From a virus: a stretch of DNA of 21,402 nucleotides. Below the pieces are notes generated by a model. The model worked only from the letters and a program-made list of their open reading frames with translations. It was not told the origin of the DNA and made no database searches. Below, piece by piece: positions 2,188 to 20,171 of this stretch. Every line of letters begins with the position of its first letter. Position 1 is the first letter of the stretch. Location of the stretch: IMG/VR virus record IMGVR_UViG_3300031715_000029, positions 1-21,402 of that record; one strand, given 5' to 3'. The position numbers and the translations under genes were made by a program.

Positions 2188-2342
2188 CGGAGGATCAATA
2201 CCGCAAGGAATGGATCGCCGAACTGAAAAACGGAATTGATTGCGGAACGCTCGAACGCGAGAACAAGCGCGTCACGCTCCGCACTTCTCAAATGACGCTC
2301 AGCGAATACGAGCAATTCAGAAGGAACTTTACGAAACAATGA
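2184..2342 (+). CDS. Small hypothetical protein between DnaA-like and GcrA-like genes
   Basis: This 52-residue gene overlaps the DnaA-like gene at its start (ATGA) and the GcrA-like gene at its end (ATGA), so it is locked into the operon by translational coupling on both sides. The protein begins MTEDQYRKEWIAELKNG and is rich in Glu, Lys and Arg, with a likely helical N-terminal half and a basic tail (EYEQFRRNFTKQ). No family is recognised. The two-sided overlap is the main reason to accept it. It may be a small helper of one of its neighbours. Confidence 0.55.
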   Translation: MTEDQYRKEWIAELKNGIDCGTLERENKRVTLRTSQMTLSEYEQFRRNFTKQ

Positions 2343-3007
2343 ATACTCCTCCCCCTGTCCCCGTAGAGCGCGCGATCAGCATTTACATTCAGAATAACTG
2401 CACCTGGGGGCAAGTCTCCCATTTCCTGCGAGAAGAGACCGGGCACTTCTGGAATCCAGCGACGATCAACAGCGCGGTCAACCGTTTCCGCGCAGGCATC
2501 CCGCAGCGCTCCATAGGCTGGACTGACGAAAAGATCGAACTCCTCAGAAAGCTCTGGGCGGAGCGTGAGCGGAGCGCGCCCAATATCGCAATCGAGATCG
2601 GCGGCCTCACGCGTAACGCGGTAATAGGCATGGTCCATCGCTTGGGGCTTCCTCGCCGGGCCAAATCCCCGCCTCCGCCGCCAGCAAAAAAGCCGCGACC
2701 GAGAAACAACTTCAATCCGTCGCTAAAGCAGCGCGTCCCGCCGCCGCCGCGCGTCCCCTATCTGCCGCCAGAGACCAAAGAATACATCCTGGGTGCTGGC
2801 AAGAAGCTGCTCGATCTCGCGGACCACGGTGAATGCAAGTGGGCCCTCAATGAAGTGAGAGACGCCGCCGACTATTTCTTCTGCGGGGAAAAGACGGGGG
2901 AAGGATTGCCTTATTGCCCACACCACAGCGCACGGGCGTATAGCCGGACATCGACGCAAGTGGTTCGAGATACGGGTGAGCGGCTGAAGAAGCGGTTGTG
3001 GAGCTGA
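2339..3007 (+). CDS. gcrA: GcrA-family cell-cycle regulator
   Basis: The 222-residue protein has the GcrA DNA-binding domain at residues 61-107 (WTDEKIELLRKLW, then GGLTRNAVIGMVHRLGL), a Pro- and Lys-rich linker at 111-145, and the typical C-terminal part at 166-197 with CKW, FCG and PYCPHH Cys/His elements. An extra N-terminal helical part (residues 8-52) lies ahead of the domain. GcrA binds RNA polymerase with sigma-70 and activates promoters carrying methylated GANTC sites in Alphaproteobacteria. The start at 2339 is chosen over upstream in-frame starts because it overlaps the preceding stop and gives the canonical spacing. It probably redirects host transcription towards phage or cell-cycle promoters; targets cannot be named from the sequence. 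Confidence 0.85.
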   Translation: MNTPPPVPVERAISIYIQNNCTWGQVSHFLREETGHFWNPATINSAVNRFRAGIPQRSIGWTDEKIELLRKLWAERERSAPNIAIEIGGLTRNAVIGMVHRLGLPRRAKSPPPPPAKKPRPRNNFNPSLKQRVPPPPRVPYLPPETKEYILGAGKKLLDLADHGECKWALNEVRDAADYFFCGEKTGEGLPYCPHHSARAYSRTSTQVVRDTGERLKKRLWS

Positions 3008-5339: not shown

Positions 5340-5873
5340 ATGGATCGCTGGCATATCGCTCTCATCGAGCCTCAGTCCGAACAGATTGCCTCTCGCGCAC
5401 TCAGAGCGAGAGGCTACGACGCCTATTGGCCGAAGTTCCCCAAGAAAACGAGGAAGCGCTATGGGGTTCACGAATTGCGCATGAGGCCGATGTTTCCTGG
5501 TTACATGTTCGTCAACGAATCAATTCGAGGCTGGGACGGACTTCGCACCGCGCCCGGCGTGCGGATCGGGCAAAGCCTGTTGATAGACCCAGGAACCGGA
5601 CGGCTCGCTGTGCTCCCAACAGGGGAGATAGAGCGCATCGGAGAAACCGAAAAGAGGCTTATCGATCAAATCATTAACCCACCTCCTCGATCGCTTCCCT
5701 ACGGGGTTGGTGATACGGTCCGCGTCACTGGCGGTGTCTTCTCCGGCTTCTATGCCACAATTGAGACACTTGACGATGAGGAGAGAATAGCCTTACTTAT
5801 GGACATCTTCGGGCGGAAATCCCGCGTCTTCGCTTCTCACGAGCACCTGTCAGCTCTTCCCTCTGTCTCTTGA
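5340..5873 (+). CDS. NusG/RfaH-like transcription antitermination protein
   Basis: The 177-residue protein has the NGN fold signature: WHIALIEPQSE at residues 4-14, the FPGYMFV hallmark at 52-58, and WDGLRTAPGV at 65-74. A KOW-like C-terminal domain follows at about 121-170 (GVGDTVRVTGG and the strand pairs after it). NusG-family proteins bind the RNA polymerase clamp and suppress pausing or termination; specialised members act only on chosen operons. The gene lies directly ahead of a strongly structured leader (5883-5969) and a terminator (6499-6523), beyond which the whole structural operon lies. This makes it a good candidate for the late antiterminator of this phage. The family call is firm; the target is inferred. 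Confidence 0.85.
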   Translation: MDRWHIALIEPQSEQIASRALRARGYDAYWPKFPKKTRKRYGVHELRMRPMFPGYMFVNESIRGWDGLRTAPGVRIGQSLLIDPGTGRLAVLPTGEIERIGETEKRLIDQIINPPPRSLPYGVGDTVRVTGGVFSGFYATIETLDDEERIALLMDIFGRKSRVFASHEHLSALPSVS

Positions 5874-6537: not shown

Positions 6538-7005
6538 GTGAGCAAAGACATTGGCGTCGTGATCGCGTTGCCGGCCGAGATGAAACACCGCATTGACGCA
6601 ATGGCCGCGCAAGTGGGCCTCAGTGCGCAAACACTTATGCTGGCGTGGGTATTGCAGGGGATGAAGGGGCCTGGCGCGGCTCCGTTCGTGCCATTCAACG
6701 GCACGCCAAATCACCGTGGAGGTACGAGAGTTATTGCGGAATTGCCGGTGGATGACGACGACGCCTGGCGCGGTCCGCCTCCCGATGACGATCCCGAGCC
6801 TACGTCAGATGTGGACGTAGACGCCATGATCGCCAGCCGCGTGGCTGAGGCTGAGAGCGCCGGCCTTGCGCAGCCGCCCGGGCAAGCGTACGAGGCGTTC
6901 GGACCGCCGACGGCCCAGGTCGCTCCCGCAAACGTGCGCGCGCTCCGCCGACCTCCGCCACAATTTGATCCAGCTAATCAGGCAAGCCACCTGCGGAGCC
7001 TGTAG
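6538..7005 (+). CDS. Ribbon-helix-helix-like N-terminus with acidic tail, hypothetical
   Basis: The gene starts at GTG 6538, fixed by a perfect AGGAGG ribosome site at 6528-6533. Residues 5-42 of the 155-residue product (VVIALPAEMKHRIDAMAA, then VGLSAQTLMLAWVLQGM) fit the CopG/Arc ribbon-helix-helix pattern: one strand followed by two helices with a GLS turn. The rest is low complexity, rich in Asp, Pro and Ala, including a DDDDAWRGPPPDDDPEP stretch. It is the first gene of the structural operon and lies just upstream of the DUF5681 gene. A DNA-binding role is suggested by the fold resemblance; a packaging or regulatory role would fit the position. Neither is proven. Confidence 0.55.
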   Translation: MSKDIGVVIALPAEMKHRIDAMAAQVGLSAQTLMLAWVLQGMKGPGAAPFVPFNGTPNHRGGTRVIAELPVDDDDAWRGPPPDDDPEPTSDVDVDAMIASRVAEAESAGLAQPPGQAYEAFGPPTAQVAPANVRALRRPPPQFDPANQASHLRSL

Positions 7006-7045
7006 ATGTTTGACCTTGACCTCACAGCAAGCCTAAAAGCAAGTC

Positions 7046-7408
7046 ATGGCAGACCACAACCGCAACCCGAACGGGAAGGGCGGGTTTCAGAAAGGCCGAA
7101 GCGGTAACCCCTCGGGGGCGAAGCGCCGGCATATTTCCGACCTCTCCAAAGAAGCGAGGCAATATGCGCAGCTCGCCCTCGGAACGCTTGTGAAAATCTG
7201 CCGCGAGGGCATCGAGCGCAACCGCCTGACTGCCGCGCGCGAGCTTCTCGACCGCGGATACGGCCGACCGGTCCAGGCCATCGACATGATCACAGCCGGC
7301 AAGAAGCTTTCGGAACTGACCAATGAGGAGCTCGCCGCCTTCGAGGCGCGACTGGTGACGGCCGCCGCAGCTGATGCTGAACCCTCACAGGGTGACATGT
7401 TCCACTAA
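7046..7408 (+). CDS. DUF5681 protein, candidate small terminase subunit
   Basis: The 120-residue protein starts with the typical DUF5681 motif: GKGGFQKGRSGNPSGAKRR (residues 11-29), a basic Gly-rich element. A helical part follows (residues 38-85, with LVKICREGIERNRLTAARELLDRG in two helices) and then an acidic Ala-rich C-terminus ending EPSQGDMFH. DUF5681 genes commonly lie directly upstream of the large terminase gene in prophages of Rhizobiales, which suggests the small, DNA-recognising subunit. Here about 1.7 kb of accessory genes separate the two. The ribosome site is weak. The final 22 coding bases are repeated at 7676-7697, at the end of the small gene 7526-7699. Confidence 0.75.
   Translation: MADHNRNPNGKGGFQKGRSGNPSGAKRRHISDLSKEARQYAQLALGTLVKICREGIERNRLTAARELLDRGYGRPVQAIDMITAGKKLSELTNEELAAFEARLVTAAAADAEPSQGDMFH
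7385..7406 (+). repeat. Direct repeat A, copy 1: end of the DUF5681 gene
   Basis: Twenty-two bases (TCACAGGGTGACATGTTCCA plus CT) encode the C-terminal SQGDMFH of the DUF5681 protein. They recur without mismatch at 7676-7697, 291 bases downstream, and the match continues with CC before and A after apart from single differences. Confidence 0.9.
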
Positions 7409-7443
7409 CCAGGGCAACGGGCAACGAGTCGGGAGTTAAATGG

Positions 7444-7542
7444 ATGACGGCCTTATGGTTTTGGGAAGATAACGGCCCGCTTTGGATGTGGCTATTTGAG
7501 CCCAATGAATTGATGGAATTAAGGGATGATAAACCTGATTAA
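7444..7542 (+). CDS. Very small Trp-rich hypothetical protein, 32 residues
   Basis: The frame begins with ATG 7444, preceded by GGGAG eight bases upstream, and ends at TAA 7540-7542, overlapping the start of the next small gene by 17 bases. The product (MTALWFWEDNGPLWMWLFEP and a short charged tail) has five Trp and several Leu and Phe residues, so it could associate with membranes. No family is known. The ribosome site and tight packing support translation, but the length gives little statistical weight. Confidence 0.35.
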   Translation: MTALWFWEDNGPLWMWLFEPNELMELRDDKPD

Positions 7543-7699
7543 TACTCACCTTGCGGCCCAGGGGGTCGCGCACGCAGGGGCGGACGGCCGTACGGTTGCA
7601 GTCGTCGCCATCGCTATGATATTTATTATCTGTGCCGCCACTGTAGTGTTGTTACGCATGATGAAGCGGCCGCCGTCACAGGGTGACATGTTCCACTGA
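7526..7699 (+). CDS. Small membrane protein carrying the DUF5681 C-terminal tail
   Basis: The 57-residue product begins MINLINTHLAAQGVAHAG, has a single hydrophobic span at about residues 23-45 (TVAVVAIAMIFIICAATVVLL) and ends with RPPSQGDMFH. The last seven residues and the underlying 22 bases are identical to the end of the DUF5681 protein. The stop overlaps the start of the DUF5131 gene (TGATG), so the coupling that would belong to a DUF5681 end is preserved. The gene looks like an inserted small membrane protein to which the end of the upstream core gene is joined. Function is unknown. The tail may be only a recombination scar or may mimic the DUF5681 C-terminus. Confidence 0.55.
   Translation: MINLINTHLAAQGVAHAGADGRTVAVVAIAMIFIICAATVVLLRMMKRPPSQGDMFH
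7676..7697 (+). repeat. Direct repeat A, copy 2: end of the small membrane gene
   Basis: This is the second, identical 22-bp copy of the sequence at 7385-7406, read in the same frame to give SQGDMFH before the stop. The repeat brackets the stretch 7407-7675, which contains the two small genes at 7444 and 7526. Confidence 0.9.
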
Positions 7700-8421
7700 T
7701 GAGAAACAGCGCAATTTCGTGGACCGACCACACCCAAAATTTTTGGGTGGGCTGCACCAAGGTTTCGCCGGCCTGTGATCATTGCTATGCCGAATCATGG
7801 GCAAAGCGCGGAGGTTATCCTGAGTTGTGGAGCGGGTTGCGCCGCCGAACTAAGACATGGAACGACCCGATCAAATGGGACCGGCAAGCCGCGATCGCTG
7901 GGCGGCGGCCGCGGGTGTTCTGTTCATCCTTGGCGGATTTCTTTGACAATGAAGTGCCTCCGGAATGGCGCGCCGAAGCCTTGGATGTGATCCGTAAGAC
8001 CACCAACTTGCGCTGGATGCTGCTGACGAAGCGCATCGGCAACGCTGCCAAGATGCTTCCGCTTGATTGGCCGATGCCACATGTCGGATTGATGGCAACG
8101 CTTGAAAATCAGGAAGCGTTTAATCGGGACTGGCCGAAGCTCGCCAGACTGCCGGCGGCGTGGAGAGGCGTTTCTATGGAGCCGCTCCTCGGCGCCGTCA
8201 ATATCGGCTACGCCGCCCCGGATTGGGTGATCGTTGGCGGTGAAAGCGGCCAAGGCGCCCGCCCGCTACGGCTAGAATGGGTGCGCGACCTTCGCGACCA
8301 GTGTGCCAGGAACCTTATTGCGTTCCATTTCAAGCAACATGGCGGGTTGCGGCCGACATCAAATGGGTGCGAAATTGATGGTCGCGAACACAAGGAATTT
8401 CCCAGCGCTCTTGCGGCATGA
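7699..8421 (+). CDS. Phage Gp37/Gp68 (DUF5131) family protein
   Basis: The 240-residue product begins with the family signature ISWTDHTQNFWVGCTKVS and continues CDHCYAESWAKRGG: cysteines at 19, 26 and 29 with Tyr30 resemble the metal-binding start of radical SAM-like proteins. Later family features are WMLLTKRIGN, GVSMEPLLG, WVIVGGESGQGARPL and a C-terminal FHFKQHGG with a DGREH ending. Length is normal and the frame is intact. DUF5131 proteins are widespread in phages and mobile regions, with no biochemical function that I can state with certainty. It starts at TGATG coupled to the previous gene. Its place between the DUF5681 and terminase genes is not part of the usual head module, so it appears to be cargo. 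Confidence 0.85.
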   Translation: MRNSAISWTDHTQNFWVGCTKVSPACDHCYAESWAKRGGYPELWSGLRRRTKTWNDPIKWDRQAAIAGRRPRVFCSSLADFFDNEVPPEWRAEALDVIRKTTNLRWMLLTKRIGNAAKMLPLDWPMPHVGLMATLENQEAFNRDWPKLARLPAAWRGVSMEPLLGAVNIGYAAPDWVIVGGESGQGARPLRLEWVRDLRDQCARNLIAFHFKQHGGLRPTSNGCEIDGREHKEFPSALAA

Positions 8422-8472
8422 TTGATGGGAGTTTTGCTCGAGCTTGTCCGCGCCGAACGACAAGCCAAGGCG
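8420..8472 (+). repeat. Direct repeat B, copy 1: duplicated terminase start
   Basis: This 53-base stretch is identical to 9074-9126. It includes TTGATG and the first 48 coding bases of the large terminase (MGVLLELVRAERQAKA). After the repeat both copies drift but still share the residue pattern A-I/V-E. The repeats bracket about 600 bases with two small genes. Confidence 0.95.
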
Positions 8473-8499
8473 ATTGAAGAAAGAGAAGTCATTGAATGA
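8425..8499 (+). pseudogene. Terminase start fragment, 24-codon mini-ORF
   Basis: From ATG 8425 the duplicated terminase start encodes MGVLLELVRAERQAKA, identical to residues 1-16 of the terminase, then IEEREVIE and a stop. The stop overlaps the ATG of the next gene (8496) as ATGA. The mini-ORF can therefore act as a leader that hands ribosomes to the inserted genes, in the same way that a terminase start would be entered from the gene before it. It may be only a recombination remnant, or a short peptide with the terminase N-terminus. Confidence 0.6.
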
Positions 8500-8786
8500 A
8501 CCCGAAAACCGTTCTGGGGCTCATGTTGATCTTCATCGCTGTGGGGCTCGGGCTAGTCGTATTTGGGGAACGTAGCCGAGTCGAAGCCGATCGGCTTCTC
8601 CGCAACCCTCCGAGGACAGACCAGAGTAACGGCGGCACATATGGATTCGACGGATCAAGTATTCTTCTAGAAGCTCCGACAATTGATTGTAAAGACGATG
8701 AGATAATGGTGCTCGGCGTCGATCCTCATGGACCGCCAGGCATTGGGCGTTGGTACTGCTTGAAGCACGAACCCGAAGGAAAATGA
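8496..8786 (+). CDS. Small membrane-anchored hypothetical protein
   Basis: The 96-residue product has a positively charged start and a single hydrophobic segment at residues 6-23 (VLGLMLIFIAVGLGLVVF) followed by a polar domain with two cysteines (IDCKDDEIMVLGVDP and WYCLKHEP). This is a type II membrane protein or an uncleaved signal anchor, placing the polar part in the periplasm. No family is recognised. The gene overlaps the mini-ORF before it and the gene after it by ATGA. It lies within the repeat-flanked insert 8473-9073. Confidence 0.6.
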   Translation: MNPKTVLGLMLIFIAVGLGLVVFGERSRVEADRLLRNPPRTDQSNGGTYGFDGSSILLEAPTIDCKDDEIMVLGVDPHGPPGIGRWYCLKHEPEGK

Positions 8787-9079
8787 CGCGTCATATGTCA
8801 GAAAAAAAGTCGACCGGCCAGGCCGTTGAAGTGCCTGAGGCAGCCATTGTCTCCATCATGAATGCGTCTCTCCATGAGTTGAGGGAGGCCCTCAGCAGGC
8901 TTGACGAGCATGTTTTACTGATGACGGACATCACGGTAAAAGAGAGACTAGTAAGGGCTTTCAAGAAGTGCGATCTAGATTGCGCTGATTGGGACGACGA
9001 TGTTCTTGGAGAACTTGCAGAGGTCGTTATCCGCGCCCTAACCCCTTATATTTTTGAGGGGTCAGATAAGGACGATTGA
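8783..9079 (+). CDS. Hypothetical acidic helical protein, second gene of the repeat-flanked insert
   Basis: The gene starts at ATG 8783 (a second ATG at 8795 is possible) overlapping the previous stop, and ends TGATG with the true terminase start. The 98-residue product has a polar start (MSEKKSTGQ) and a mostly helical body (VSIMNASLHELREALSRLDE, then VLGELAEVVIRALTPYIF) with an acidic end. No known motif was found. Coupling on both sides suggests it is translated at levels similar to those of the terminase. Confidence 0.6.
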   Translation: MTRHMSEKKSTGQAVEVPEAAIVSIMNASLHELREALSRLDEHVLLMTDITVKERLVRAFKKCDLDCADWDDDVLGELAEVVIRALTPYIFEGSDKDD

Positions 9080-9126
9080 TGGGAGTTTTGCTCGAGCTTG
9101 TCCGCGCCGAACGACAAGCCAAGGCG
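9074..9126 (+). repeat. Direct repeat B, copy 2: start of the functional terminase gene
   Basis: This is the second copy of the 53-base repeat at 8420-8472, 654 bases away, without mismatch. Here the frame continues into the full terminase ATPase domain, so this copy is the functional one. Confidence 0.95.
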
Positions 9127-9912
9127 GTCGAAAGCAACGAACCGGGTAGAGACCCGCAAACCGAGCGCCGCGGCCCTTTCCGCTACTTCCCGGATGATGG
9201 CGCTCTCCGCCGGGAATTGTATCCGAGGCACATGGAATTCTTCGCGGCCGGCGGGAGGCACCAGCCGCTTCCCACATGCGCGGATGATTGTGACGGTAGC
9301 CCGCATCGCGAGCGCCTGATGCTCGCCGCCAACAGAGTTGGAAAAACGGAATCGGTGGGCGCTTACGAAGTCGCGTTGCATGCCACTGGCCGCTATCCGG
9401 CTTGGTGGCCCGGTTTCAGGTTCGGTCGGCCCGTTGAGATTTGGGCTGCCGGTAAAAAAAATGAAACGACCCGTGACGTTGTGCAAAAAAAGCTATTCGG
9501 CCCGGTCACGACGCACGGCCATCTCAAGACCGTAGAAGGAACGGGCCTCATTCCAGCCGAAGACATCGGTGCCGTGAGCTGGAAACGTGGCGTGCAAGAT
9601 TTGGCCGATACTATCCGTGTCAAGCATCAATCAGGTGGATGGTCAACTATCGGTCTCAAAAGCTACGAGCAAGGTCGCGGCGCATTCGAAGGCACCGAAA
9701 AAGACCTAGTGTGGTTCGATGAGGAACCGCCGGGCGATGTCTACGTCGAAGCGCTCGTACGCACCATGACGACGCAAGGCCATGTTCTGCTGACGTTTAC
9801 GCCGCTTGAAGGGATGTCCGACGTGGTGCGGATGTATCTGCCCGGCGGTGGGCTGCCGAAGCGCGAAGAAGATCGAATGGCCAATGTGCTGAAGGCGGTC
9901 GGCTATTCATGA
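9079..9912 (+). CDS. terL: Large terminase, N-terminal (ATPase) half of a split gene
   Basis: The 277-residue product is the packaging-motor ATPase domain. It shows the Walker A motif ANRVGKTE (residues 84-91), a hydrophobic Walker B with DLVWFDEE (209-216) and the coupling motif TFTPLEG (239-245). It lacks any nuclease domain: after RMYLPGGGLP the sequence becomes unrelated and stops at 277. The nuclease domain is found at 10487-11236. The start is ATG 9079, coupled to the gene before. The stop overlaps the next small gene by ATGA. Normal terminases of this family have both domains in one chain of about 500 residues, and 277 plus 249 fits that well. Whether the two halves assemble in trans is not known. 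Confidence 0.9.
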   Translation: MGVLLELVRAERQAKAVESNEPGRDPQTERRGPFRYFPDDGALRRELYPRHMEFFAAGGRHQPLPTCADDCDGSPHRERLMLAANRVGKTESVGAYEVALHATGRYPAWWPGFRFGRPVEIWAAGKKNETTRDVVQKKLFGPVTTHGHLKTVEGTGLIPAEDIGAVSWKRGVQDLADTIRVKHQSGGWSTIGLKSYEQGRGAFEGTEKDLVWFDEEPPGDVYVEALVRTMTTQGHVLLTFTPLEGMSDVVRMYLPGGGLPKREEDRMANVLKAVGYS

Positions 9913-10188: not shown

Positions 10189-10497
10189 ATGAGCGATCCA
10201 ACCTTGATCGAGCGGTTGGAAAGATGCGCGGCCCTGCTGCCGGATTGGGCGAATGATCCTGAGTGTGCCATGAAGGAAGCCGCCGCCCGCATCCGGGAGT
10301 TGGAGGCCGAGAATGTGCGTCTTCAAAGAGCAATCGACAATTTAATTGATAGGCCAACGGACGAAGCTAGCCGCCTCCGCGCCCACATCCGGAAGCTGGA
10401 GCGGTTACTTGGCGGCAAGGATACCGCAGACATTGCTTTGGCTGAGTTCGTTAGGAGGCACCCTAACCTCGCCGGCGGGAACGAGGATGCCCGGTAA
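10189..10497 (+). CDS. Coiled-coil hypothetical protein inserted in the terminase gene
   Basis: The 102-residue product starts MSDPTLIERLERCAALL and is dominated by heptad-like helices (AAARIRELEAENVRLQRAI, then ASRLRAHIRKLERLL), a short coiled coil. Similar small proteins with an R-I-x-x-L-E core are frequent in phages of Rhizobiales. Its last codons overlap the start of the terminase nuclease half (ATG 10487), so the downstream half is probably translated by coupling. The end of the gene, ending NLAGGNEDAR, weakly matches the YLPGG site in the ATPase half, a possible repeat at the insertion point. Confidence 0.55.
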   Translation: MSDPTLIERLERCAALLPDWANDPECAMKEAAARIRELEAENVRLQRAIDNLIDRPTDEASRLRAHIRKLERLLGGKDTADIALAEFVRRHPNLAGGNEDAR

Positions 10498-11236
10498 ATA
10501 CGTCGTCAACGCCGGCTGGGATAACGTGCCTCATTTGTCCGAAGAGGACAAGGCCAGCCAGCTCGCCGGCTATCAGCCATATCAGCGGGATGCTCGCTCA
10601 AAAGGATTGCCGCTCCTCGGCGCGGGAGCGATCTATCCCGTTGCTGAAGATTACGTCCTCTGCAATCCGTTCCAAATCCCCGATTGGATGCCTCAATGCT
10701 ATGCGCTTGACGTGGGATGGAATCGCACGGCGGCGCTGTGGGCAGCCTGGGATCATGACCAGGATATCGTCTACCTCTATTCGGAGTACTACCGATCCGA
10801 GGCCGAGCCGCCCGTGCACGCCAATTCTATCCTCGCCCGCGGCAAATGGATTCCTGGCGTGATCGATCCGGCGGCGCGCGGGCGCAACCAAAAGGACGGC
10901 ACGAAGCTCATCGAGGTCTACCACAATCTTGGCGTCGAGATGCTGTTCGCCTCAAGCAATGAATTGGAAGCCGGCATCTATGAGTGCTGGATCCGGCTAT
11001 CGACGGGGCGCCTCAAAGTGTTCCGGACCTGCCAGAACTGGCTCGCCGAGTTCCGCTTCTATCAGCGCGACGAAAAAGGCCGCGTCAAAGACGGACAGCA
11101 AGACCATCTGATGGATTGCATGAGATACATCGTTCTGTCTGGCCTCGCGCGCGCTGTCGTTCGTCCTGCCTCGATGTGGCGAATGCGAGGCGCGACGCCG
11201 CAGCACACTGGCGAATACGACCCGCTGAAATATTGA
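10487..11236 (+). CDS. terL: Large terminase, C-terminal (nuclease) half of a split gene
   Basis: The 249-residue product has the RNase H-like nuclease domain of large terminases: YALDVGWNRTAALWAAW with the first catalytic Asp at 75, GVIDPAARGRNQKDG with Asp127, and DHLMDCMRYIVLSG with Asp206 or Asp210. The N-terminal part (MPGKYVVNAGWDNVPHLS) is the linker that normally follows the YLPGG region of the ATPase domain. The start ATG overlaps the end of the inserted coiled-coil gene. The C-terminus ends GEYDPLKY; in some phages this tail docks onto the portal. All catalytic positions are present, so the half may be active with the ATPase half supplied separately. Confidence 0.88.
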   Translation: MPGKYVVNAGWDNVPHLSEEDKASQLAGYQPYQRDARSKGLPLLGAGAIYPVAEDYVLCNPFQIPDWMPQCYALDVGWNRTAALWAAWDHDQDIVYLYSEYYRSEAEPPVHANSILARGKWIPGVIDPAARGRNQKDGTKLIEVYHNLGVEMLFASSNELEAGIYECWIRLSTGRLKVFRTCQNWLAEFRFYQRDEKGRVKDGQQDHLMDCMRYIVLSGLARAVVRPASMWRMRGATPQHTGEYDPLKY

Positions 11237-11923: not shown

Positions 11924-12133
11924 ATGGGCATCTTCTCGCCGTCTGTTCCGACGCCTCCCCCGCCTCCTCCTCCGCCTCCCGCGGCTAATCCTCCAATCTT
12001 TGCGAGTGGCCAAACGCTCGCCTCTCTCGCCCGGCGCAATCAGGAAAAGCCGATGGGCGGAACTGACTTGACGACGGGCCAAGCGAAGCAAGCCATTACA
12101 ACCGCAGCGCAAGGATTAGGTTCAACCAAATGA
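11924..12133 (+). CDS. Small Pro-rich head-module protein
   Basis: The 69-residue product has the MGIFSPSVPTPPP start with nine consecutive Pro residues, then a short ANPP segment, a basic helix (ASLARRNQEK) and a Gly/Thr-rich C-terminal part. Small proteins of this composition lie between the terminase and portal genes in many podovirus-like prophages of Alphaproteobacteria; I know of no assigned function. Its stop overlaps the portal-fragment gene by ATGA. Confidence 0.5.
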   Translation: MGIFSPSVPTPPPPPPPPPAANPPIFASGQTLASLARRNQEKPMGGTDLTTGQAKQAITTAAQGLGSTK

Positions 12134-12390
12134 AATGCGTTTGCGCACTCGGCGACATTTATCGAGTCTCCGAAGGCATGAAATCTATCTACGACGTGCA
12201 ATTTGACGTCGAGCACATGGCGGCCTTGATCGAGAAAATCGAAGCGCGCGTTGAGAAGTGGTTCTTCGATGATGCCTTCAAGATGCTGGACAGAATAGAG
12301 GTTGAGGCGGAGCGGGAACGGCAAACTCAATTACAACTATGGGCTGATGATGGTGGCCGCGAAGAGCAAAACTCGGACGAGTCTGATTGA
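12130..12390 (+). CDS. Portal-fragment protein, 86 residues
   Basis: Residues 9-52 of this product (GDIYRVSEGMKSIYDVQF and the stretch through VEKWFFDDAFKM) copy the middle of the portal protein (about residues 377-420). Residues 17-47 differ from the portal nowhere and the DNA has a 53-base perfect match followed by mostly silent changes. The eight residues before (MKCVCALG) and the acidic tail (WADDGGREEQNSDESD) are new. The gene overlaps the previous stop by ATGA and has a clean stop, so it appears expressed. It may be a relic of duplication, or a portal fragment that binds portal partners and modulates ring assembly. Confidence 0.6.
   Translation: MKCVCALGDIYRVSEGMKSIYDVQFDVEHMAALIEKIEARVEKWFFDDAFKMLDRIEVEAERERQTQLQLWADDGGREEQNSDESD
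12173..12225 (+). repeat. Direct repeat C, copy 1: portal segment in the small gene
   Basis: Fifty-three bases from 12173 match 14251-14303 without mismatch (offset 2078). Similarity continues to about 12290 with scattered, mostly silent differences. Both copies are read in the same frame. Confidence 0.95.
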
Positions 12391-12520
12391 GCGTATCGCC
12401 TGGCTCGGCATTGTGCTGCTTTGGTTCTGGCCGCTTACGCTTGGCGTTCTTAGCCTCGCCGTACTGATCTACATCGCGATAGTCGCCATCCGCTTGATAG
12501 CGGTTGCGCCGGTCATCTGA
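12347..12520 (+). CDS. Small membrane protein, 57 residues
   Basis: Two adjacent ATG codons (12347 and 12350) start a frame that overlaps the previous gene by 44 bases. After a basic start (AAKSKTRTSLIERI) the product has an almost continuous hydrophobic region (WLGIVLLWFWPLTLGVLS and LAVLIYIAIVAIRLIA), long enough for two spans. The high content of Leu, Ile, Val and Trp is that of a small inner-membrane protein. Function is unknown. It begins a run of three genes with membrane or export signals. Confidence 0.5.
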   Translation: MMVAAKSKTRTSLIERIAWLGIVLLWFWPLTLGVLSLAVLIYIAIVAIRLIAVAPVI

Positions 12521-12531
12521 AAGGACAATTC

Positions 12532-12816
12532 GTGAGGGCTTTCAGCGCCATATTTATGCTTTTAGTGAGCACTGTCGCGGCAAACGCGCAATATTACCGC
12601 GGCGGCTATGCGTACCCCGGGCGCGGCTACTACGCCGGCGGCGGCCATTACAGCGAACATTATGGCCGACCATACGGTGGTTGTTACGGATGCTACGCGC
12701 CGCGACCAGCCCCGCGCCCAAGCTACGCGCCGCGAGGCGGTTACGACTTCAGTTGGGGCGGCGGCAATCGCGGTTACCTCGGAGGTCGAGGCGGCGGTTG
12801 GGGAGGTGAATGGTGA
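12532..12816 (+). CDS. Secreted Gly/Tyr-rich protein with Sec signal peptide
   Basis: The gene starts at GTG 12532, with AAAGGA about 8 bases upstream. The first 19 residues (MRAFSAIFMLLVSTVAANA) form a classical Sec signal peptide with an ANA-Q cleavage site. The mature 75 residues are low complexity, made of Gly, Tyr, Arg and Pro (GGYAYPGRGYYAGGG, then PRPAPRPSYAPRGGYD, ending GGWGGEW) with one CYGC pair. Such proteins are disordered and may coat surfaces; similar Gly/Tyr-rich secreted proteins occur in Bradyrhizobium-type genomes. A secreted protein does not belong in a head operon, so this is probably cargo that acts in the host periplasm. Confidence 0.65.
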   Translation: MRAFSAIFMLLVSTVAANAQYYRGGYAYPGRGYYAGGGHYSEHYGRPYGGCYGCYAPRPAPRPSYAPRGGYDFSWGGGNRGYLGGRGGGWGGEW

Positions 12817-13100
12817 ATCGTAGGTCATTCATTCGCGGATTGCTCGCGAGCGCTGCGGCGGTGCCGATAGCTGGCACGGTGGCCGACCTAACGGTTTATG
12901 GCCGTTCGCCGGCGATGTTGCCGCAGTATCTTGACGATATGTCGGAGATGCTATGTCAAGCCAATGAGATAATAGACGACATGCCTTTCCTGTGTGATGT
13001 CGGCTGGGACTGCAGGTACATAAGCCGTATTCGTCAGATCGACGGAGAGCTAGTAGTTGACACGGTGCCCCTCGAAGAAACATGGGTCGAGGCTGTCTAA
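12810..13100 (+). CDS. Tat-leader protein carrying a capsid N-arm-like segment
   Basis: The 96-residue product has a twin-arginine leader: NRRSFIRGLLASAAAVPIAG at residues 3-22, with the RR-x-F-I pattern, a hydrophobic core and a likely cleavage site soon after. Residues 43-59 read DMSEMLCQANEIIDDMP and match the major capsid protein near residues 21-37 (DMAELLSQCNEMIDDMP): 12 of 17 residues and 40 of 51 bases agree. The rest (WDCRYISRIRQIDGE and an acidic end) is unrelated. The start is ATG 12810 or GTG 12813, overlapping the previous gene. The stop lies directly before the portal start. A capsid-like piece on an exported protein is unexpected; a simple relic of recombination remains possible. 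Confidence 0.6.
   Translation: MVNRRSFIRGLLASAAAVPIAGTVADLTVYGRSPAMLPQYLDDMSEMLCQANEIIDDMPFLCDVGWDCRYISRIRQIDGELVVDTVPLEETWVEAV
12936..12986 (+). repeat. Diverged repeat D: capsid N-arm segment (second copy 19194-19244)
   Basis: Over 51 bases, 40 agree with the start region of the major capsid gene (19194-19244), giving 12 identical residues of 17. The copies lie about 6.2 kb apart in the same orientation and in the correct reading frame. Confidence 0.7.
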
Positions 13101-14975
13101 ATGCTTGACGCCTCCGCCTTAGCCCGCCGCGCCGGCGATGACGGCCTTCTCGCTCACTACGAGATCGCCAATGCATCGCTGCTCGCGCAGACGCCGGCCC
13201 TCGCCAAACAGAAATGGTACGAGGAAAGCCAAGGCTGGGAAGAGTTGCGGCTTCAGCTTGAGAATCGGCTTTATGGGCTAAGAAACTGGAGGCTGTCATG
13301 GTGGATGCATTGGGCGAAGCTGGCCGAGGCGATCCTCCCAAGAAGATATCACTGGCTGATCGTACCAAACACTATGACCCGTGGCCTCGCTATCAATCAA
13401 GCGATCAAGGACCCTACGGGATCGCAAGCCGTCTCTGTGTGTGTGGCCGGCATGCGCTCTGGCCTAATGTCATCATCCCGCCCATGGTTCGCGATCAAGC
13501 CTAGCCTCCAATCTTTTAAGCCGGACCGCGCCGCAGAGCTCTGGTTCGCAGATACGACAGATCGCATCTATCGCGTCCTCAACGGCTCGAATTATTACAA
13601 TTGCGGAACGCAATTGTTCGAAGACCTCACGGTGTTCGGCACCGCGCCGAAGATCATGTATGAGGACCGCGAAGACATCATCCGATGCTACAATCCATGT
13701 GCTGGCGAATATTATCTCGGCGCAGGCTCTGACAATCGCATCAATTCTTTCTATCGCACATTCGTGCAAACCGTTTTGCAATGCGTTCAGATGTTCGGCC
13801 TTGAGAATTGCTCCGCCGAAGTGCAGGGGATGTGGGAACAGAAGGGCGCATCGCTCGAAACTGAGATCATCGTTGCGCACGTCATAGAGCCAAATTTTTC
13901 CTTGCAGATGCCGGGAATGCCAGAGAATCTTGGCGTTATCCCATGGGGATTTCCGTACCGCGAATATTATTGGGAGTGGGGACGATATTCGAAGCAGCCA
14001 CTCAGCAAGCGCGGCTTCCATGAAAAGCCATTTATCGCGCCGCGCTGGACAATTGTTTCGAATGACGCCTATGGCCGCTCGGTCGGAATGGACGCTCTAC
14101 CGGACATCCTGCAGCTCCATCTCATGACGATGCGGCAGGCCGAAGGCATCGAGAAGATGCTTCGGCCGCCGCTCCTTGCTTCACTCGGTTTGAAGAATCA
14201 ACCGTCGTCGATCCTGCCCGGCAAAGTGACTTACGTCGAAGACGTAACGAAAGGCATGAAATCTATCTACGACGTGCAATTTGACGTCGAGCACATGGCG
14301 GCCCTGATTGAGAAAATCGAAGCGCGCGTTGAAAAATGGTTTTTTAACGATGCATTTCAAATGATGAGCAGCATCGAGGGCGTGCAGCCGCGCAATGAGA
14401 TGGAGATCGCCGAGCGACGCGGCGAGAAACTTCAGCGGCTCGGCCCGGTCGTCGAGAACGTCGAACAGGAACTCGCTCATGACGTAAGGCGCACCACGGC
14501 GATTATGGGGCGGCGCAATCTACTCCTGCCTAAGCCGCCCTCGTTGGTCGGTGTTCCGCTGGAAGTTGAATTCGACCCCATGACTCGGCAAGCCCAGCGG
14601 GCGGCCGAGACCGCCGTCATGGAGCGCGCCATCAGCGTCGTGACGAACCTTAAGAACAGCTATCCGGACGAGCATCCGGAAGACAATATCGACCTCGACA
14701 AGACGACGCGCCGCTATCTAGATCGGTCGAATTTCCCGAAAGATTGCATGCGCGACGAGGACGAGGTCAAGCAAGTGCGCGCCGGCCGCGCCAAAGCGAT
14801 GGCTGAGGCCGCCCAGAAGCAACAGGCCATGCAGGCGATCACGCATGCCGCGCCGGCCGCGGCAAGCGCCGCCAAGGACGCGAGCGAGATTGAGCCAGGC
14901 GGCGCTATCAACGCGCTCAATCTAATGAGCGGTATGGGCGGAGCCGCCCCAGGCGCAACAGGATTGCCACAGTGA
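13101..14975 (+). CDS. Portal (head-tail connector) protein, podovirus type
   Basis: The 624-residue protein belongs to the T7/BPP-1-type connector family found in podovirus-like phages of Alphaproteobacteria. Typical parts are NWRLSWWMHWAKLAEAILP near residues 61-79, the GLMSSSRPWF region, LFEDLTVFGTAP, the Tyr- and Trp-rich middle (GFPYREYYWEWGRYSK) and a C-terminal DNA-facing region with DEVKQVRAGRA. It forms the dodecameric ring at one vertex through which the terminase pumps DNA. Start is ATG 13101 directly after the preceding stop; the C-terminus is Ala- and Gly-rich. The next gene overlaps by GTGA. The segment at about residues 384-420 is duplicated in the gene at 12130. Confidence 0.88.
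   Translation: MLDASALARRAGDDGLLAHYEIANASLLAQTPALAKQKWYEESQGWEELRLQLENRLYGLRNWRLSWWMHWAKLAEAILPRRYHWLIVPNTMTRGLAINQAIKDPTGSQAVSVCVAGMRSGLMSSSRPWFAIKPSLQSFKPDRAAELWFADTTDRIYRVLNGSNYYNCGTQLFEDLTVFGTAPKIMYEDREDIIRCYNPCAGEYYLGAGSDNRINSFYRTFVQTVLQCVQMFGLENCSAEVQGMWEQKGASLETEIIVAHVIEPNFSLQMPGMPENLGVIPWGFPYREYYWEWGRYSKQPLSKRGFHEKPFIAPRWTIVSNDAYGRSVGMDALPDILQLHLMTMRQAEGIEKMLRPPLLASLGLKNQPSSILPGKVTYVEDVTKGMKSIYDVQFDVEHMAALIEKIEARVEKWFFNDAFQMMSSIEGVQPRNEMEIAERRGEKLQRLGPVVENVEQELAHDVRRTTAIMGRRNLLLPKPPSLVGVPLEVEFDPMTRQAQRAAETAVMERAISVVTNLKNSYPDEHPEDNIDLDKTTRRYLDRSNFPKDCMRDEDEVKQVRAGRAKAMAEAAQKQQAMQAITHAAPAAASAAKDASEIEPGGAINALNLMSGMGGAAPGATGLPQ
14251..14303 (+). repeat. Direct repeat C, copy 2: inside the portal gene
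   Basis: This is the portal copy of the 53-base identical stretch at 12173-12225. The near identity of this part, with none of its flanks shared, shows that the duplication is recent or kept alike by conversion or selection. Confidence 0.95.
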
Positions 14976-17787: not shown

Positions 17788-17966
17788 ATGACCCATTCTT
17801 CGAGCGGTGCTCGCGTGACCCATTATTCCTGCGTGAGGGCCTAGAGGGTCTAGCGATCGCGCTTAACGCTGGCTGGCGCCCCGATGAAGAGAGAACAATG
17901 CAGGAAGCCATCAGCGAGGCGATTGAGGAAAGCTATCGACGGAAAGCGCTCAAGGATGAACAATGA
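17757..17966 (+). CDS. Small hypothetical protein with a capsid-like start
   Basis: Starting at ATG 17757 (GTG 17754 also possible) the product has 69 residues beginning MAFMTLEDIGNDPFF; the capsid protein begins MAFLTLLDIGRHFDP. The remainder is unrelated: a helical acidic body (EGLEGLAIALNAGWRP, then TMQEAISEAIEESYRRKA) ending ALKDEQ. The last six residues also end the next gene. Both ends of this ORF therefore repeat other sequences of the operon. It overlaps the genes on both sides. Confidence 0.5.
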   Translation: MAFMTLEDIGNDPFFERCSRDPLFLREGLEGLAIALNAGWRPDEERTMQEAISEAIEESYRRKALKDEQ

Positions 17967-17971
17967 CCGAA
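17946..17971 (+). repeat. Direct repeat F: gene end plus scaffold start (copies at 17946 and 18191)
   Basis: The 26 bases 17946-17971 match 18191-18216 with three silent differences. Each encodes ALKDEQ, the stop and the overlapping start MTE of the next gene. The part CAATGACCGAA is found a third time at 17735-17745 within the end of the Bbp19-like gene. Confidence 0.85.
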
Positions 17972-18211
17972 ATGAGTGAGCGCGTGGCGAAAGCACTATT
18001 TCTTACAAACAATCCTCGGCTTTCCTGGGAAGAACAATCGACGAAATCTCCCGTCAGCGTGGACATTTATCGGTTGTTGGCAAAAATAGCTATCGAAGCC
18101 ATGCGCGAGCCGAACGACGAGATGCTGAATCTCGTGACCCCATGGAACAGAAAGAAGACCAAAGCATTTTGGCAAGCCATGATCGACGAAGCGCTTAAGG
18201 ACGAGCAATGA
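17963..18211 (+). CDS. Small hypothetical protein, repeat-flanked, 82 residues
   Basis: The gene starts with ATGA and the product reads MTEMSERVAKALFLTNNP, then a Trp-containing segment and a helical part (DIYRLLAKIAIEAMREPNDEM) ending IDEALKDEQ. Small proteins with an A-R-K-A-I-E-A-M-R-EP-like core are common in phages and prophages of Rhizobiales, with no known function. Its start and its end match the surrounding genes through repeat F, which suggests insertion at the junction before the scaffold gene. It is coupled on both sides. Confidence 0.55.
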   Translation: MTEMSERVAKALFLTNNPRLSWEEQSTKSPVSVDIYRLLAKIAIEAMREPNDEMLNLVTPWNRKKTKAFWQAMIDEALKDEQ

Positions 18212-19059
18212 CCGAATCCACTCCCACCGGAGCCGCGCCGGCCGCTGACGCTGCCCCAGCCGCAGTGACGTCCACAGAATCCGCAGCCGCTCCGGCTTCG
18301 CAGGACTCGACAACTGCCGCACAATCTGGCACACAGGATTCTGCGCCTAGCTTGCTCAGCGTGGCGACGGGAAAAACTCCCGATCAGCCGGCCCCGGCTG
18401 CAGAGCCTTCGACCGACGCCAAAGCCGCTGACGCTCCAAAGCCAGCAACGGCTAAGGAGCAACCGGCAAAGCCGGATGATCCCGGCAAGGCGGAGGTCAA
18501 GGCAGACGCAGCGACCGACCCGGCTCCGAAGGACGCCACGGCCCCCGAGCCCACGGCCCTTGCGAGCATCGAAGACCTGAAGCTGCCAGACGGCACGAAA
18601 CTTGATCCGGAAGCAGGCAAAGCGTTCATTGATCTGATCAACAACGCCGAGCTCTCCGCCAAGGATCGTTCCCAAAGCCTGATTGACCTCCATCAAAAAG
18701 AGATCAGTCGCGTTGCCGAAACAATGGCGCAGCACCAGCGTAAGGTCTGGGATGACACCAACGCCCAGTGGAAAGAGCAGACCCGGAAAGAATTCGGTAA
18801 TCGGCTCGACACCGTGTTGGCAACAGGCAAGGCCGTAATCGAAGAGTTTGGCGGCGACCGCGTCCAACGGCTTCTGCAATTCCTCGACTATACCGGCGCC
18901 GGTAATCATCCCGACATGATCTGGTTCCTGGGCAACATCGGCAGAAAGTTCGGGGTTTTCGAGAACAACATGGTCGGCGCCAATCCGAAAGCCCCCGCGG
19001 CCAAGAGCCCAGGCAATCGAGGCTGGTACGACAAGAGCCTCAACGCTCCCGGTACATAG
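18208..19059 (+). CDS. Capsid scaffolding protein
   Basis: The 283-residue product starts with about 110 residues rich in Ala, Pro, Thr and Asp (AAPAADAAPAAVTSTESA), including SLLSVATGK, and then has a charged helical body: DLKLPDGTKLDPEAG, SLIDLHQKEISRVAET and WKEQTRKEFGNRLDTV, ending PGNRGWYDKSL. This architecture, a disordered acidic N-terminus followed by helices, and the place directly upstream of the major capsid gene are typical of the scaffold of BPP-1-like phages. It would shape the procapsid and leave before DNA packaging. Start is ATGA-coupled. A long antisense frame over this gene is only a GC shadow. Confidence 0.8.
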   Translation: MTESTPTGAAPAADAAPAAVTSTESAAAPASQDSTTAAQSGTQDSAPSLLSVATGKTPDQPAPAAEPSTDAKAADAPKPATAKEQPAKPDDPGKAEVKADAATDPAPKDATAPEPTALASIEDLKLPDGTKLDPEAGKAFIDLINNAELSAKDRSQSLIDLHQKEISRVAETMAQHQRKVWDDTNAQWKEQTRKEFGNRLDTVLATGKAVIEEFGGDRVQRLLQFLDYTGAGNHPDMIWFLGNIGRKFGVFENNMVGANPKAPAAKSPGNRGWYDKSLNAPGT

Positions 19060-19133: not shown

Positions 19134-20171
19134 ATGGCCTTTTTAACCCTTCTAGACATTGGGAGACATTTCGACCCCGAAGGCAAAATCGCCGATATGG
19201 CGGAGTTGCTGTCTCAATGCAACGAAATGATCGACGACATGCCGATGGTCGAGGCGAATGGCCTCACCTCTCATGTCACCACGGTGCGGACCTCGCTGCC
19301 CAAGGGCGCGTACATCCGCTACTACCAAGGAACTCCCTATACCAAATCAAACCGAGCCCAGCTCGAGTTCGGTATGTCGCTTCTGCGGGATTATTCGCAG
19401 ATCGACAAGGAAATGTGCCGCCTCGGCGGGCAGGAGTCGGTCCTTCGCGAGAAGGAAGACATCGCCCACATGGAAGGCCTCAGCCAGCAGCAGTCAACGA
19501 CGCTCGGTTATGGCAACAGCTGGACGACCCCCGAACAATTCACCGGCTTCGCACCGTATTTCAACACGGTCTCCACAACGACTGCTGCGAATGCCGTCAA
19601 TGTGTTCGACTGCGGCGGTACGGCCTCCTCGAACGCATCCATCTGGCTGATCGGCTGGGGCGATTCGACCTGCTACGGCGTTTATCCGAAGGGAAGCAAA
19701 GGCGGTCTCGTCTTCGAAGACAAGGGCGACGTCGTCCCCGGCTTCGACAGCAACCAGCAGCGCTTTGAGGCTTACACCAGCCTCTTCCAGTGGCAGCTTG
19801 GTCTCGTCGTCGAGGACTGGCGCTATATCGTCCGCCTCTGCAACATCGACACCACCACCGCCGGGTTGCTCGGCCCGACCCCGCCCGATCTCTTCGCCAT
19901 CCTCGCCCGCGCCATCGTGCGCTTGCCGACCGCCGGCCGCACCGTCTCCGGGATCGTTAAGACCGACGCGCCCGACCGCATGTCCCCAGCCATCCGGTTG
20001 AAGCTCTACTGCGATCGCACCGTGCGCGCAGCCATGGACGTGCAAGCCATCCGCGACAAGAACGTTCTGCTTTCCCCGACCGACTACGCCGGCCGGCCCA
20101 TCGTCAATTGGCGCAATGTCCCGATCGGAGTTCAGGATTCGCTCCTGAACACCGAGGCGCGCGTGGTCTGA
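19134..20171 (+). CDS. Major capsid protein
   Basis: The 345-residue protein begins MAFLTLLDIGRHFDP and has the features of BPP-1/epsilon15-like capsid proteins: an N-arm with NEMIDDMPMVEAN (residues 30-42), then the conserved TTVRTSLPKGAYIRYYQG, LEFGMSLLRDYSQIDK and a C-terminal P-domain ending with LLNTEARV. This would be the HK97-fold shell subunit. The start at 19134 is chosen for GGAG seven bases upstream; another ATG at 19130 is in a different frame. The N-terminal start is echoed by the gene at 17757 and the N-arm by the gene at 12810. The next gene begins 17 bases after the stop. Confidence 0.88.
   Translation: MAFLTLLDIGRHFDPEGKIADMAELLSQCNEMIDDMPMVEANGLTSHVTTVRTSLPKGAYIRYYQGTPYTKSNRAQLEFGMSLLRDYSQIDKEMCRLGGQESVLREKEDIAHMEGLSQQQSTTLGYGNSWTTPEQFTGFAPYFNTVSTTTAANAVNVFDCGGTASSNASIWLIGWGDSTCYGVYPKGSKGGLVFEDKGDVVPGFDSNQQRFEAYTSLFQWQLGLVVEDWRYIVRLCNIDTTTAGLLGPTPPDLFAILARAIVRLPTAGRTVSGIVKTDAPDRMSPAIRLKLYCDRTVRAAMDVQAIRDKNVLLSPTDYAGRPIVNWRNVPIGVQDSLLNTEARVV

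Follow-up and report, generated by a model that had tools for sequence, protein, structure and literature searches.

A piece of the portal gene lies in a small open reading frame (ORF) a short way ahead of the portal gene itself, in a 21,402-base stretch of viral DNA (the window). Is this 86-codon ORF, at 12130-12390, a gene that makes a useful fragment of the portal, or is it a leftover of recombination that happens to be open? A sequence-only reading had proposed the former, with a product that could block or tune portal assembly or protect against competing phages. Our comparison with related phages suggests that the ORF is probably a chimera made by recombination, a young scrap, in a clade that recurrently keeps scraps of its head genes. 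In Table 1, we report the features on which the argument depends.

Table 1. Coordinates of features in the window and of comparable ORFs in related loci (L numbers)
Position	Strand	Feature	Basis or remark
8420..8478	+	Second copy of the terminase gene start, 59 bases	97% identical to 9074-9132
11924..12133	+	Small proline-rich gene that bounds the slot on the left; conserved	Homologues in L001-L004, L015, L016
12130..12390	+	Chimeric ORF, 86 codons	14-codon leader, portal-derived core, non-portal tail
12134..13100	+	Variable cargo slot, 967 bp	Flanked by the proline-rich gene (left) and the portal gene (right)
12173..12225	+	53 bases equal to the window's own portal gene, either converted recently or the newest patch	Sequence comparison
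12173..12301	+	Portal-derived segment, portal residues 385-427 in the portal reading frame	112/129 bases identical to 14251-14379
12302..12390	+	Tail without portal similarity, overlapping the next ORF from 12347	Comparison with portal
12347..12520	+	ORF for a likely membrane protein, begins inside 12130-12390	Codon composition like that of genes; hydrophobic product
12810..13100	+	Second scrap ORF: Tat-type signal, portal-like YGRSPAM, then major capsid protein (MCP) residues 21-39	TAT_signal and shuffle tests
12935..12985	+	MCP-derived segment, 51 bases	80% identical to 19193-19243
13101..14975	+	Portal gene, PF12236, epsilon15/Carin1/T7 type	Profile match, structure comparison
14251..14379	+	Portal segment matching the ORF: predicted second stem helix with the adjoining clip end and tunnel-loop start	Alignment and model
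19134..20171	+	MCP gene, PF20911, BPP-1 type	Profile match
L081 6475-6768; L058 5899-6177; L003 3732-4154		Small Tat-signal ORFs with an MCP piece	Piece differs between ORFs
L027 1754-1999; L078 1315-1548; L087 2029-2313		Small Tat-signal ORFs with an MCP piece	Piece differs between ORFs

The window and a portal gene piece in it

The start codon of ORF 12130-12390 overlaps the stop codon of the proline-rich gene in an ATGA junction. Its core keeps 37 of the 43 portal residues unchanged, and its first 53 bases carry no difference from the portal gene. The match is strong by tblastn (E 2.6e-21 for the ORF against the portal) and by hmmsearch (iE 1.6e-13 for the portal piece; the top reversed-sequence match has 0.26), and it has sharp limits: the flanks of the core are no more portal-like than shuffles, and neither is a gapped extension of the similarity into the tail. 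The portal copy is real, not a chance resemblance. The sequence-only reading thus described the ORF well in its overlapping start, its complete identity over 53 bases and its unrelated flanks; the copied extent, given as about 44 residues, is 43. A DNA similarity search against annotated phages returns no match. The ORF is not a portal, as a full-length PF12236 protein includes wing, stem, clip and crown, and the ORF aligns to profile positions 326-365 of 489 (E 0.0057; 15.6 bits, under the cut-off of 27).

Elsewhere in the window are genes for a protein with a DnaA C-terminal domain (1777-2187), a GcrA-type regulator (2240-3007) and a NusG-like protein (5340-5873). The GcrA-type gene points to an alphaproteobacterial host. 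No RNA families or tRNAs were found in the 21,402 bases. The large terminase is split into an ATPase part (9076-9912) and a nuclease part (10487-11236) with two small ORFs between them. The same split occurs in L001, L002, L007, L008 and L009, where the insert is different or absent, and L005 has a different terminase type (6959-9481) with an apparent intein (CFVAGTLIQTP ... HNAYYANDILVFNC).

Position of the copied segment in the portal

We modelled the portal from 40 sequences (mean pLDDT 73.5). In the model, residues 328-354 form a helix, prediction is poor over 355-395, and a helix with one break spans 396-423; after a loop comes a 39-residue helix, 433-471. Among solved structures, the fold is closest to the Carin1 portal (8ck0) and then to the LME-1 and T7 portals, and the Avs4-bound portal 8dgf is within the first five. 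T7 gp8 runs in the order stem helix, clip, stem helix, tunnel loop and 39-residue helix, and its two stem helices per subunit build a ring of 24 helices that forms the channel wall (PMC6702177). Because the model follows the same order, the copied piece would comprise the second stem helix (alpha9 of T7 gp8) and, before it, the last part of the clip. The model is of a monomer; by analogy with T7, the segment is predicted to lie at a subunit interface in the ring, the placement for which the sequence-only reading had proposed to look.

The copy is a mosaic

The sequence-only reading held that the copy had been made cleanly at fragment size, and the distribution of differences contradicts this. 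The 17 differences in 129 bases leave the first 53 free, which has P = 5e-5 under an even spread. The last 76 bases match the window's own portal at 59 positions, those of L003 and L016 at 61 and that of L087 at 62. At some of the differing positions it is the window's own portal that has a rare base, and the copy shares the one that is common in 25 relatives; at others it is the reverse. Since the first part is exact and the rest is no closer to the resident portal than to portals of other phages, the copy is a mosaic. The simplest reading is that the piece is older and came from this lineage or a relative, and that its first part was later made identical to the resident portal.

The claim that the copy shows no decay stands for the frame, which is open, but not for the encoded residues. 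The first 31 residues of the piece have no replacements, and that stretch equals or nearly equals the window's own portal; all six replacements fall in the last 12 residues (416-427). Two of them, N416D and G427V, replace residues that are almost fixed: 35 of 40 portals have N at the first position and 32 of 40 have G at the second.

We also considered mutagenic retrohoming by a diversity-generating retroelement (DGR) as the source of the differences, and rejected it: just 7 of the 17 lie at portal adenines, and part of the differences are changes of the window's own portal relative to its relatives.

The ORF in relatives and the nature of its tail

We collected 11 relatives from viral contigs, with portals 67-82% identical; after two wider scans the collection counted 102 non-redundant loci. 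The length of the cargo slot varies widely among relatives: 0 bp in L003 and L016, 6 in L004, 153 in L015, 598 in L001 and 2426 in L002. The sequence-only reading had suggested a search for the same fragment gene in relatives. ORF 12130-12390 is absent at this place in the nearest ones (L001-L004, L015 and L016), two of which have the empty slot. A direct scan with the ORF matches only the portal gene of L014/L015, and an HMM survey of the fetched loci finds no relative of it. Judged on these sequences, the ORF lacks the conservation in relatives that marks a functional phage gene.

The tail, which had been described as the ORF's own, is indeed not portal sequence, but it belongs in part to something else: its last 44 bases, about half of it, are the 5' end of the putative membrane-protein ORF that starts at 12347. 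A tail of 29 codons stays open by chance in 36% of shuffles. Its G+C content by codon position (0.79/0.39/0.46) is unlike that of the portal gene (0.61/0.43/0.68) or the MCP gene. Because the codon composition of the tail is not gene-like and half of the tail overlaps the next gene, we see no sign of selection on the copy, and for that reason we take the ORF as a young scrap. The description of a cleanly copied, undecayed gene that is expressed claims more than these sequences support.

Portal and MCP pieces in related phages

We carried out a profile search for portal and MCP pieces across all ORFs of the loci. The clearest portal piece is in L032, where a 91-residue ORF opens with the first stem helix and shares 93 identical bases with its own portal. 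In L043 (8243-8875), an exonuclease (PF16473) has a portal clip-like stretch at its C-terminus. Weaker pieces are found in L052, L127, L021, L025, L047, L120 and L087. All five pieces outside contig ends at E < 0.25 fall in model columns 314-425, that is, the clip and the residues flanking it on both sides (power-weighted P ~0.001); several of the pieces behind this clustering are weak singly (iE 0.1-2) and are supported mainly by their shared position. An ORF at 12072-12458 of L087, with relatives in L110 and L019, starts portal-clip-like and continues with pieces that resemble the MCP.

MCP pieces are commoner than portal pieces among the related loci. C-terminal pieces occur in L027, L003, L131, L078 and L081, there are other MCP pieces besides, and two loci carry DNA copies of their own MCP gene (82 bases at 87% in L100, 52 bases at 90% in L123). 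Near-complete mini copies of the MCP are found at L081 5322 and L150 2424. These two, 42% identical to each other over 229 amino acids, are examples of MCP-derived ORFs that are old and conserved between phages.

A second scrap lies in the window's own cargo slot, ORF 12810-13100. Its TAT_signal match (E 0.0012) is under the family cut-off, and none of 200 shuffles scores as high for the MCP, nor any of 200 for the portal. A search of viral contigs found no relative of this ORF, and among 347 genomes of one bacterial order there is one weak match (E 0.003). Similar small ORFs that join a Tat signal to an MCP piece recur in other loci (Table 1). Seven of the eight small Tat-signal ORFs, 12810-13100 of the window included, beat all of 200 shuffles for MCP likeness, L058 barely; the eighth, an esterase-like protein in L096, has no MCP likeness. 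A stricter Tat pattern misses L027 and L058, so that the count independent of MCP similarity is 5/6, or 6/7 when L058 is added from a looser pattern. A made-up Tat consensus peptide has no match in phages.

Short duplications and the choice of donor

Short dispersed DNA repeats are found in 26 of the 102 loci; of these repeats, 21 keep the phase of their source and 19 do not. With about half of the repeats in phase, the copying of short segments is on this count a general process in these phages. Five of six isolate genomes have short dispersed repeats too, several of which are DGR or tail repeats. The 59-base terminase duplicate of the window flanks an insert of two ORFs (8496-9079) and is likely an insertion scar. 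Two pairs of neighbouring small genes have near-identical 3' ends, 7382-7406 with 7673-7697 (25 bases) and 17944-17971 with 18189-18216 (28 bases), and these shared gene ends look like recombination insertion at the ends of genes.

The in-frame pieces have a narrower origin. When small ORFs are compared, without bias, against every large ORF from their own locus, the in-frame donor is the portal or the MCP in 6/6 independent cases. Together these two proteins make up 19% of the donor sequence searched, which gives P ~5e-5, a value to be read with only six independent cases, from loci chosen for encoding a portal or MCP. The test leaves out L058 (low-complexity) and L107 (a neighbouring tandem pair), and counts L117 and L119 as one. 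It is mainly this contrast between the in-frame copies and the copies as a whole that hints at selection for keeping some scraps. No scraps occur in six isolate phages that are related (BPP-1, epsilon15, Carin1, SR18, ctRVW222 and DC33). We also tried 20 prophage regions and set the candidates aside, as they were mostly host repeats or low-complexity matches.

Origin and possible role of the ORF

The chimera probably arose as follows. About 130 bases of a portal gene, from this lineage or a close relative, would have been pasted in the portal frame into the cargo slot and so become fused to a leader and a tail that are unrelated to the portal. The resident portal gene would later have homogenised part of this piece, or been the source of a more recent copy of that part. 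The coupled start makes translation plausible, and the product would be a short helix copying the second stem helix of the portal. Recombination of this kind has support within the window (the terminase start, 59 bp at 97%; the gene ends at 7382/7673; the MCP piece at 12935) and in the relatives (the portal copy of L032 and the MCP copies of L100 and L123). Since the clade keeps in-frame scraps of portal and MCP above chance, some scraps probably do a job. For those that do, the most plausible job would be that of a self-mimic, binding partners of the portal or capsid.

A serious competitor, to which we give somewhat less than an even chance, is a purely neutral scar: short duplications are frequent, this one happens to be open, and none is functional. 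Overall, duplications out of phase are about as frequent as those in phase, so that neutral copying alone could be enough, and what we find for ORF 12130-12390 itself agrees with it, from the missing homologues in the relatives read to the chance-like tail with its codon composition and the 3'-end replacements, two of them at nearly fixed portal positions. The restriction of in-frame donors to portal and MCP argues the other way, as do the MCP pieces on seven of eight small Tat ORFs and the old, conserved pair at L081 5322 and L150 2424. These observations concern the class of scraps, and it is for the class that we expect a function in some members. A metagenome assembly artefact around the exact 53-base repeat held by this contig is, in comparison, very improbable. 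A simple crossing at the repeat would not create sequence that continues beside both copies, and the full-length portal matches its relatives on both sides of the repeat, while the copy stays portal-like for 76 further, diverged bases; the analogous case in L032 comes from another sample.

If the ORF does act, its helix might interfere with portal assembly or packaging, of its own phage or of competitors, as the sequence-only reading supposed. The predicted position of the piece, in the wall of the 24-helix ring and adjoining the site where terminase and adaptor dock, would suit this role, and so would the clustering of the relatives' portal pieces around the clip. We nevertheless consider interference unlikely for this ORF, which is absent from relatives and has changed residues that are nearly fixed in portals, and several pieces in the cluster are individually weak. 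The fragment may otherwise serve as a decoy for host immune sensors of the portal, a lone stem and clip piece that occupies the sensor without assembling the ring that activates it; this we regard as a slim chance. In SPbeta, the clip of the portal YonE recruits the TIR protein SpbK and brings about its oligomerisation (PMC12847820). The placement of the Avs4-portal complex among the closest solved folds is in line with such an encounter. The MCP, the other donor of scraps, is a known immune trigger as well (CapRel). On the other hand, much of the clip is missing from the ORF, which has just the end of it; SpbK contacts the clip helix. The fragment might also trigger the sensor instead. Tat signals would also move the MCP scraps out of the cytosol. 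They fit neither the interference nor the decoy route well.

Taken alone, the ORF that we read as a young recombinational scrap is a modest case of phages making new reading frames from old ones. The more interesting result is the class: recurrent head-gene scraps, often behind an export signal, are unexpected, and their in-frame donors, portal and MCP, are the head proteins to which assembly partners and host immune sensors attach. Should some of the scraps have a function, these phages would be producing mimics of parts of the phage head. A broader conjecture, which we put forward as doubtful, is that a group of uncultivated tailed phages, probably of alphaproteobacteria, repeatedly turns pieces of portal (clip and stem flanks) and MCP into small chimeras, often Tat-exported and sometimes fused to another domain (exonuclease), and that these self-mimics are kept for an effect on head assembly, rivals or host sensors. 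Our search of the literature for portal or capsid fragments as genes found nothing relevant.

Comparison with known systems

With the PF12236 portals of the epsilon15, Carin1 and T7 type, ORF 12130-12390 shares a core that is residues 385-427 of one such protein; it holds about 7% of the protein, and wing and crown are absent. Partial duplication and illegitimate recombination, the source of mosaicism in tailed phages, likewise produce a short gene piece with unrelated flanks in a variable cargo slot. The case here differs from general phage mosaicism in that the in-frame donors are portal and MCP only, the piece is a mosaic, apparently with parts of two different ages, and an open frame has it as its core. 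Recognition of portals by SpbK and Avs4 illustrates how a portal (for SpbK, its clip region) can be a binding surface for other proteins, but there a host sensor meets a complete portal, and here we have the piece alone, known from its sequence. A further parallel is found in capsid-derived restriction factors such as Fv1, a Gag-derived gene of the mouse with antiviral action, in which a piece of a viral structural gene is likewise kept as a separate gene. Fv1, however, sits in the host, whereas the putative gene described here, read from DNA alone, is carried by the phage itself.
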